Assembly (NCBI GenBank): GCA_030272155.1
Contig: CP126204.1
Location: forward strand, 4,641,501 to 4,705,500
Length of the DNA stretch: 64,000 bases
From: Tetradesmus obliquus
Lineage: Eukaryota > Chlorophyta > Chlorophyceae > Sphaeropleales > Scenedesmaceae
Direction: 5' to 3'
Shown: positions 5,658 through 46,428 of the stretch, one piece after another
Layout: every line of letters starts with the position of its first letter
Position numbering within the stretch: position 1 is the first letter of the stretch
Notes under the pieces: model-generated
The model's input: the letters and a program-made list of their open reading frames with translations, nothing else
The model's database searches: none
Told to the model about the DNA's origin: nothing
Position numbers and translations under genes: made by a program

Positions 5658-8600
5658 CTACTGGTGCCCCTGCGCCGCAGCAGCAGCGCAGCGCGTGGCA
5701 TCTTCCCGCCACCTGGCCAACAGGTAGCACCCCAAGGGGCCCAGCTGACCCACGCCAGGCAAGCCTGCTGCTGCTGCTGCTGTTGCTGCAGTGCCGCCAC
5801 TGCTGCTGCCGCCGAGGCCGCTGAGCCCACCGCCAGGCCCTGCAAACGGCCGCTGCTTGCCCAGCCCTGCAGGGGGGGTGCTGCCTAGCCCAAGCTGCTC
5901 CATCTTGCGCTGCTGCTGCTGCTGCTGCAGTACAGGCTGCTGCTGCTGCTCTACCTCGCTGATCTGTGGCAGCTTCTGCTGCTGTTGCTGTGGTTTTGAC
6001 CGCTGCTGCTCCAGCCCGTCTGCTGCTGCTGCGCCAAACATGCTGGCTGCTGCTGCGCGAAGTTTGACCAGCGCAGGCTGCTCGTTGACCGACAGCTGCA
6101 GCATGGCCTCGCACAGCAGCAGTGAACAGCTGCCCGGCTGCAGCTGCTCCAGCTGTTGTAGCGCTGATGCAGCAGTGTCAATTGCGGCCTGCGGCACAGC
6201 ATGGGGACCAGCAGAAGAGCAGAGCAGATCAGGTTGTGTGATGGAACACAGCTCGCAAGCAAATTGCCAGTAGCACACCAGACTGCCTGCACAGCTGCCT
6301 GAGTAAGTAGAGTAGCAGGCGCACAGCTGACAGCAGTGCTGCTATGCTCAAAAGCAGACCGCCAACAGCAGGCTGCGCTTCTGCAGTGCTATCGCGCTGT
6401 CCAATGCTTGTTTGGCCCGTTGGCTCAAGCACACGCTGTGCATTTGGTGTATAAGAGAGGGCTTTAGGCATGCCGCTGCCCACCTGCACGCCTGGTGCCG
6501 GCCCCGCCCCTGCAGGCCCCCCAGCGCCCTGCAGCGACTGCAGCGCAGGCAGCAGCAGCCGCCCCAACGCTGCGCCTCCATCTGCTACTGCCGCTGCTGC
6601 TGCTGCTGCTGCTGGTCCTGCTGCGCTGACGGGGGCGCTGGTGCCGTCCTGCCAGACCACGCGTGATGACACGATAGGGATGGCGCCCGGCGCTGACCCG
6701 TTGCCGGCAGCACCACCTGTGCAAGGCAGCAGCATCAGCAACAGCAGGTGAGTGTGTGGACAGGCAAACAGGCAGGCACAGGGCAAACCTATGGGGCGTT
6801 GCTTTGCTGGCACCTGGCATGGCGGTGCACAGACCAGTGATCAGCAGCATTGAGCACATACTGCTATTCCATACTGCTATTGTACAACCTGCACGCTACA
6901 GCTGCATTGTGCCTCCATGCTGCAAGATAAAAACTGCTTCAACACATGCTTGCTGGCACGCAGTGCAGTCAATGCGTCAGGCAGCTTGCCCTGCCGCACC
7001 TGCTGCACTGGACGCCTCAACAGGCAAGGCGTTGACATCCACCGACAGCTGCTGCAGCGATGGCAGCCGCGCATACACCGGCTTGCCTCCCGCTGCTGCT
7101 GCTGCTGCCGCTGCTGCTGCTGCACCCTGCATTGCTGCTGCATTGCCTGGTGCCACCCCAGCACCACGACCCTGCCCTGCAGCTGCAGGCCCGGCAGCAG
7201 CAGCAGCAGCAAGCGCCTGGCTGCCGCTGCTGATGCGGCTGTTGCTGCCGCTGCGCAGCGTGCCACTGAATGAGCTGCCTGTGCCAGAGCCCACAGTGTC
7301 CCTCCAGCTGCCGCCACTGGCAAGCAGGCCCTGCGCTGCTGCTGCTGCTCCTGCCGGCAGCGTGCCGCCCCAGGCGCTGCCTCCTGATGCTGCTGCTGCT
7401 GCTGCTGCCGCCTCTGCTGCTGCGCGTGCCTCGTTTGCAGACAGGGTGCGGCCTAGGCTGCCAGCTGCAGTGCACGGCAGGGACGTACAAACAGTGCCTA
7501 CAGTCAGAGCCTTGTCCTAGCGTGGCGCTGGCAGGGCGTGTGCAGCACATACAAGCCGACCTGACACGTGAACTACAACATACAAGCACAGCGAAATAGA
7601 GCAGACGCAGATGACAAGCCGCGCTGCGCTTTTGCGCATTGCTGCTGCCCTGCCCACCTGAGTAGTCTGTGAGCACTGACTGGCCCAGCCCACCAGCAGC
7701 AGCAGCAGCAGGGCCCAGCTCGCCAGGCCGCAAGCTGCCTGCAGCACTCAGCCCACCACTGAGCCCACCACTCAGCGTGCCACTGAGCCCACCGCTAGCC
7801 ATAGTGCCCAGAGCGCTGCCAGTCACGTATCGCTCTACTACCGCTGATTTGAGAGCATCGCCGGATCGCAGAGTACCTCCCATTGCTGCCGCTGCTGCTG
7901 CAACTGCTGCAGCGTTTGCGGCTGCTGCGGTGGCTCCCGCATTGCTTGCTGTGCTGGTGGCTGCTGCTGCTGCTGCTGTTTGTGCCGGTCCCGGGCCTGA
8001 GCCTGTCATGAGCTGCTTTGCCTTGCGCGTGCCAAAGTCCCAGACAGGAATTGTACCCATCTGCAAAGCAGCCCAGCAGGACAGGCAGCAAGCACATCAG
8101 CACGTCAGGCAGCACGCAGCAATGCGCTGACACAGCAACGGCATCCATCAAGTGGGGTCACGGGCACTGCATCTTACGCCAGGTGCGGTGCTGAACGCAT
8201 GCATGCGTGGGTGTTGCCACCAGCAGGCCTCACACCGCTTCCCGCGTAGTCCGCAAGCGCACATGCACAGGCGCTTGCTTATATGCTCTCCGCCCACAGC
8301 CAGGCCCTGCATGATGAACGCATGACCTGCGCACCTGCCACGGCAGGCCTCACATAGTAATACTACTCACTGCGCAGTCTCCGCCCGGCTCCCAGCCGCA
8401 CCTGCCCACCCACAAACTACCCCCGCGATTGCTGCCACGCCAGCAGGCGCCCCAAGCCGTGCGAGTGCAGCACTGAGCGCCAGCTGGTGGGACTCTGAGC
8501 CCCTCAGTAACGCAAGATCAACATCTACAAAACAGTACATACCAAGAGCGCAGCCTCACCGCATAGTCGCCGCCCGGCTCCAAGCCGTGCCCGTCCACCA

Positions 8601-46428: not shown

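Follow-up and report, generated by a model that had tools for sequence, protein, structure and literature searches.

We analyzed a 64-kb window (positions 4641501-4705500 of contig C14) of the Tetradesmus obliquus genome, which comprises 104.66 Mb in 17 contigs. The GC content of the window is 58%; a published table lists 108 Mb, 57% GC and a mean intron length of 462 bp for this alga (PMC5966456). A preliminary description had reported copies of exon edges in the introns of six genes of the window, encoding a kinase, an acidic protein, a GDSL esterase, a CipC-like protein, a TPR (TTC5-like) protein and a sulfatase ('CipC-like', 'acidic' and 'TTC5-like' are labels of that description). Pfam backs the kinase, GDSL esterase and sulfatase models; for the TPR gene model it does so weakly, both TPR matches lying under their cut-offs. 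The window also contains two tandem gene copies (46542-49046 and 49917-52399) that are 78% identical over about 2.5 kb and show weak LRR matches below the Pfam cut-off. A scan of the window found no tRNA and no Rfam family at the gathering threshold.

The analysis covered 344 kb of the 104.7 Mb: region A (the window plus 100 kb upstream), region B (100 kb of contig C1) and region C (80 kb of contig C4). Genes were predicted without transcripts by a two-strand hidden Markov gene finder self-trained on these 344 kb, which returned 54 genes with 554 introns (median 243 bp) and splice motifs of (C)AG/GTGAG at donors and TGCAG/G at acceptors. The 54 models contain 32 in-frame stops at intron-split codons; therefore some predicted junctions must be wrong, and the predicted gene structures are partly wrong at the copies themselves. 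We defined confident edges as those of exons of at least 60 nt with a coding score above 8 (615 edges in 48 genes), and an echo as a direct copy of an exon edge in the adjacent intron, ending no more than 10 nt from the edge. A kinase query from which echo-like pieces had been removed by hand aligned end to end with MST4/STK24. A PDH E1-alpha-like exon matched PDB (E 4e-11), and because the solved proteins are gapped by 7 residues at the exon junction, this match says little about echoes.

The kinase gene (minus strand) carries echoes at several edges. The donor edge of its 168-nt exon (original 8799-8911, region 8366-8911) is echoed at 8555-8609 (lag 244, 44/50 matching) and 8366-8478 (lag 433, 74/105), and an extra copy of it at 8676-8730 belongs to family D14 of the direct-repeat list. 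Both edges of the 157-nt exon are echoed: the donor (9312-9564) at 9461-9499 (lag 36) and 9312-9371 (lag 193), the acceptor (original about 9587-9665, region 9587-9976) at 9706-9759, 9799-9877 and 9931-9976 (lags 95, 212 and 312). The 115-nt exon has donor echoes at 10234-10286 and 10128-10181 (lags 203 and 308; original 10436-10489, region 10128-10489), whose exon-derived parts are 0.79 alike and whose spacers are 0.59 alike, and acceptor echoes (region 10521-10752) at 10631-10670 (32/34, lag 110) and 10720-10752 (28/30, lag 195). Two other donor edges have one echo each, at 11215-11251 (26/32, lag 99; original 11314-11350, region 11215-11350) and at 11687-11738 (39/46, lag 101; original 11788-11839, region 11687-11839).

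On the plus strand, the acidic-protein gene has donor echoes (region 19689-19965) at 19819-19852 (lag 127) and 19920-19965 (lag 231), two echoes of an acceptor edge (original 20841-20923, region 20325-20923) at 20586-20668 (75/80, lag 255) and 20325-20417 (60/79, lag 506), and one of another acceptor edge (original 21885-21949, region 21753-21949) at 21753-21817 (54/62, lag 132). The GDSL esterase gene (minus strand) shows an acceptor echo at 24595-24661 (43/59, lag 118; original 24477-24543, region 24477-24661); a predicted intron of this gene also holds a perfect, evidently very recent 25-bp minisatellite of 4.1 copies (25278-25379). A predicted acceptor of the CipC-like gene (minus strand, 28638-28719) lies in a perfect 40-bp tandem duplication comprising 26/26 exon positions and 16 nt of intron, which is evidently recent. 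In the TPR gene (minus strand), one donor edge (original 32522-32657, region 32233-32657) is echoed at 32233-32368 (91/127, lag 289), another (original 33325-33372, region 33083-33372) at 33211-33252 (36/42, lag 117) and 33083-33130 (41/45, lag 242), and a predicted donor edge at 32837-32992 coincides with a recent plain tandem array of a 64-bp unit (2.4 copies, 98%). The sulfatase gene (plus strand) carries a donor echo at 43795-43834 (34/35 exon positions plus 5 nt of intron, lag 121; original 43674-43713, region 43674-43834), the spacers of which are no more alike than unrelated spacers (z 0.9). A gene outside the range of the preliminary description (minus strand; donor edge, original 62320-62419, region 62198-62419) is echoed at 62198-62297 (68/89, lag 122).

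With exon-only probes of 30 nt (score at least 15), 69 of 748 edges had a copy in the adjoining intron, against 2 with the reverse complement, 1.0 with dinucleotide-shuffled introns and 1.0 with other introns as controls; with probes taken 45-75 nt inside the exon, 17 of 584 did. Gapped 150-nt probes yielded 156 matches on 108 of the 615 confident edges; 71 of 93 donor-side matches stopped no more than 3 nt short of the exon end, and 36 of 63 acceptor-side ones no more than 3 nt short of the exon start. Removal of the 37 matches that stopped more than 10 nt short of the edge left 119 echoes on 81 of the 615 edges, in 28 of the 48 genes. The same probes gave 12 matches in other introns (2 near-edge) and 28 as reverse complements (6 near-edge); reverse-complement matches scoring 44 or more were largely sequence rich in CAG/GCT or other simple repeats. 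Inverted templated insertion was rejected on this last control. Echo-bearing edges number 17/110 in the window, 34/214 in the 100 kb upstream, 19/173 in the C1 stretch and 11/118 in the C4 stretch. Copies of exon edges within introns are thus confirmed as real, both within the window and on contigs C1 and C4. Donors are richer in echoes than acceptors (51/308 vs 30/307 confident edges). All six genes named in the preliminary description were recovered with at least one echo each, its view that the copies recur in unrelated genes holds in the 28 genes and beyond the original contig, and both of the differences by which it told the copies apart, substitutions and indels, were found. The comparison of introns with flanking exons against shuffled introns, which it had proposed as a check, came out in its favor over the 344 kb (69/748 edges vs 1.0).

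Nearest echoes lie most often 110-130 bp from their edge (29 of 81), at a median distance of 124, and 46 of the 81 distances fall at 90-135. Repeats collected independently of any annotation have a lag peak at 110-140, a second rise at 200-280 (about twice the first) and a further rise at the shortest lags. That the echoes are an artefact of gene models or assembly might be suspected, as the edges were predicted without transcripts; this is hardly credible, given that the annotation-free repeats show the same spacing peak, that the copies are separated by substitutions and indels and that Pfam and PDB matches back several of the genes used. In the median duplicated unit, exon accounts for 48 nt and intron for 65 nt, and the splice site therefore lies near its middle; the unit center is 9.5 nt on the intron side, whereas random placement predicts 13 nt on the exon side. 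Some arrays are dimeric, with alternating spacer types and the exon part repeated throughout. The echoes belong to boundary-spanning tandem duplications, in which contiguous exon and intron have been copied, and full-unit similarity is clear in a minority: by a strict measure, 11 of the 64 nearest echoes with a lag of at most 180 include over 25 nt of intron.

Mismatches between exon and echo (119 echoes) occur at.113,.115 and.210 for codon positions 1, 2 and 3, and the codon differences comprise 303 synonymous, 432 nonsynonymous and 11 stop changes. This codon-position pattern is that expected for a freely drifting echo and an exon changing at synonymous sites. At the putative decoy splice sites of the preliminary description, the GT is intact in 57 of 76 donor echoes and the AG in 27 of 43 acceptor echoes, close to the expectation for neutral decay at 11% per site. 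The echoes include frameshifts and in-frame stops, and we found mostly partial exons rather than tandem exon duplications with conserved coding copies; one 58-nt exon, in A7, has been copied whole. Judged from these patterns, the echoes appear to decay neutrally and not to be constitutive exons. The copies could instead be real alternative or poison exons under selection, as the many intact GT and AG dinucleotides might suggest, together with the calling of some copies by the gene finder as sufficiently exon-like and a raised third-position share of mismatches in high-identity echoes (62/105 and 47/76), which is not fully explained. Such a role is very improbable, however, since the overall codon pattern is neutral, GT/AG retention matches neutral decay, frameshifts and in-frame stops occur, most copies are partial exons and the kinase domain is complete without its echoes; selection on the copies as exons was rejected on the codon-position pattern and GT/AG retention.

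At lags of 60-180, 29 duplications also lie wholly within introns, in 161.6 kb, and 19 are intergenic, in 63.7 kb; tandem duplication of the ordinary kind therefore accounts for part of what is seen, and the edge preference is a bias, not absolute. Random tandem duplication might even explain everything: duplications would arise everywhere with no edge preference, coding ones would be purged, and intronic ones would fade twice as fast because both of their copies drift, which would leave mainly edge-spanning ones to be detected. We consider this possible, though on balance unlikely. As a null, duplications were placed randomly in real echo-free introns, decayed and run through the same detectors. 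Edge and internal duplications were observed at 57:18, against a ratio of 1.39:1 under random placement (p 0.0015), and at 34:8 in the high-identity subset, against 1.17:1 (p 0.0003), the expectations resting on assumed indel and age distributions. Exon reaches of 30-56 nt made up 38 of 61, against 25% expected (KS p 1.6e-7; gene-bootstrap interval 0.46-0.79), with reaches below about 28 nt being hard to detect. An alternative simulation with a normal distribution of unit lengths gave ratios of 1.25-1.43 and 26-27% of reaches at 30-56 nt. Set against that simulation, the edge excess was weaker when counted over all introns (61:29, p 0.043), and 8 of the 18 intronic duplications share an intron with an edge echo. 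Purging of long exon reaches, as random duplication supposes, would cut the edge share, not boost it.

If whole units are duplicated, the intron beside a copy should resemble the intron beside the exon. In echoes at least 0.93 alike, flanks were no better than unrelated introns in 8 of 13 cases. Simulations with small indels gave 4-7%, which also argues against random duplication; frequent large indels raised the share to 22-27% and reproduced the flank mismatch in part. The corresponding fractions were 10/18 for echoes 0.86-0.93 alike (simulated 15-22% with small and 49-56% with large indels) and 8/10 for those 0.78-0.86 alike (31-39% and 62-65%). By a strict measure, 12 of 13 echoes at 0.93 or more were flank-limited (simulated 22-52%), and 18 of 24 at 0.88-0.93, where the measure does not discriminate (simulated 44-81%). 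Gap columns numbered 15 in 26 short-flank high-identity echoes and 69 in 27 long-flank echoes, and the low count in the former favors the small-indel simulation. Neutral simulations yield many flank-limited copies at lower identity, as random duplication would have it; flank-limited copies as proof against tandem duplication were therefore dropped there, and the claim is limited to the youngest copies. Also in keeping with random duplication, the spacers of 27 flank-limited high-identity copies retain some residual homology (mean z 1.77; 8 above 2). In our best reading, random tandem duplication explains part of the pattern, but not the edge bias, the exon reach or the young copies with unrelated flanks.

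The flanks could also be read as evidence of patch copying, in which about 43 nt of exon and 5-10 nt of intron are copied, or re-copied by short-tract conversion, into the intron independently of the flanks, possibly in connection with transcription or splicing. It predicts flank-limited copies of high identity, of which the sulfatase donor echo is an example, and the spacers of 83 of 118 exon-echo pairs lie in the range of unrelated ones. Where two echoes of one edge were compared, 27 of 47 pairs had unalignable spacers, and in these the exon-derived part averages 0.78 identity. The regular spacing and the dimer arrays, however, suit tandem duplication, array copies drift in both parts (0.89 and 0.80 for the echoes of A7 exon 12 at lags 305 and 528), and the contrast between exon-derived parts and flanks is weakened by the large-indel simulations; we regard patch copying as quite unlikely. 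A related proposal is splice-site-directed copying, whereby about 45 nt of exon and a few nt of intron would be duplicated or re-copied over and over, in direct orientation, at steps of about 115 bp, making the edges hot spots of intron growth; we hold this to be unlikely. Whichever applies, the comparisons suggest that segments at exon edges were copied, or have stayed alike, to a greater extent than the flanks beside them.

Two paralogous sulfatases on contig C5, with exons 87-93% identical, differ in their echoes at no fewer than two edges and share them at one. In one paralog an acceptor is echoed at lag 118 and donor echoes occur at lags that include 67 and 328, none of which is seen in the other; at another exon, acceptor echoes are present in both. 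Compared with the intron before the exon in one paralog, the intron preceding the echo in the other scored 14, a score equalled by 17 of 332 unrelated acceptors, and the intron before the echo-bearing paralog's own exon scored 2, reached by 329 of 332. The evidence as to which flank is ancestral is weak, and the difference fits either a gain in one paralog or a collapse in the other. Diagnostic bases, judged by eye, led us to reject an import of the echo from the paralogous sulfatase.

A copy at one end is present in 63 of the 295 introns between confident exons, and these introns have a median length of 461 bp, compared with 277.5 bp in the other 232 (Mann-Whitney p 3.5e-8), a comparison in which longer introns give more room for finding copies. 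The earlier claim that the copies lengthen introns is borne out by this difference, and a recurrent intron-lengthening process is supported. Their proposed role as a source of new introns received no such support. Intron gain by AGGT tandem duplication, in which intron length equals the lag and the donor aligns to the acceptor, was not the pattern in 25 self-alignments spanning donor and acceptor: in about 3 the donor falls on the acceptor to within 11 nt, and of these, two adjoin predicted exons of 21 and 39 nt and the third is a 63-bp intron. A link of exon-edge copies to new introns is thus not supported.

We therefore favor, with modest confidence, a recurrent short duplication that spans the splice site and is biased to exon edges, leaving neutral copies and longer introns. 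Short direct duplications, about 115 bp per unit, would recur in the genome, and those straddling a splice site, with about 48 nt on the exon side and 65 nt on the intron side, would be tolerated because splicing can keep using the copy that is contiguous with the rest of the exon, so that the mRNA would be unchanged and the intron longer by one unit. The intronic copy would then decay without constraint, and arrays might enlarge by further duplication, at times of dimers. This implies that splicing ignores the copies and that the duplication or repair process favors exon edges, both of which we infer. The echoes offer a countable, concrete source of intron lengthening and natural cases in which the splicing machinery must separate a real edge from a near-identical neighbor. 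If the edge bias is mutational, DNA duplication would be linked to the position of splicing or transcription; if splice-site-directed copying is true, mutation at the DNA level would be tied to where splicing or transcription occurs.

Dispersed sequences were also observed. The motif TGTTACATAACA (at most 1 mismatch) has 10 sites in the 344 kb, all within 9 predicted introns, one of them in the window at 28540-28551, and 1 site in each of three shuffles. In a search for a mobile spacer, the motif proved not to be general to spacers; searched against the 344 kb, the spacers matched, among the matches listed, their own array, a 53-nt stretch elsewhere in the same gene (85%) and sequence that was short or of low complexity. 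A repeat of about 95 bp at 28250-28344, in a large predicted intron of the CipC-like gene, is 84-94% identical to at least 38 places on many contigs; it contains no tRNA and no Rfam family at the gathering threshold, and is possibly a SINE or an introner-like element. A 49-bp stretch in a predicted kinase intron (9379-9427) recurs with 91-94% identity at at least 9 other places in the genome.

Gao and Lynch (2009) reportedly found internal gene duplication to be ubiquitous, that is, frequent within genes and including exon boundaries, and in this respect our echoes are alike; to our knowledge, the spacing of about 115 bp, the exon reach of about 45 nt and the flank-limited copies were not described there. 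We found no description of echoes as a general feature of green algae in the open literature (subscription journals were mostly outside the scope of the search), and the features that appear to be new are how frequent they are, how they are spaced, the exon reach they favor and the occurrence of young copies that are flank-limited. Like the introners described in PMC9860276, the echoes add intron sequence in many genes; unlike them, each copy resembles its own exon, with no cross-gene family among the matches listed. Tandem duplication of AGGT is described as an accepted route of intron gain (PMC3443670). As in the Drosophila cases reported in PMC2891723, the duplication is local and direct and the duplicate supplies splice signals, whereas the donor-equals-acceptor geometry of those cases is rare here. 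The account of the potato RdRp gene (PMC4974935) describes a tandem duplication across an intron-exon boundary that in one event gave rise to a new intron. In the echoes, too, a directly duplicated segment crosses such a boundary and brings the splice signals with it, but in T. obliquus many genes are concerned, the copies are decayed and existing introns are merely lengthened.
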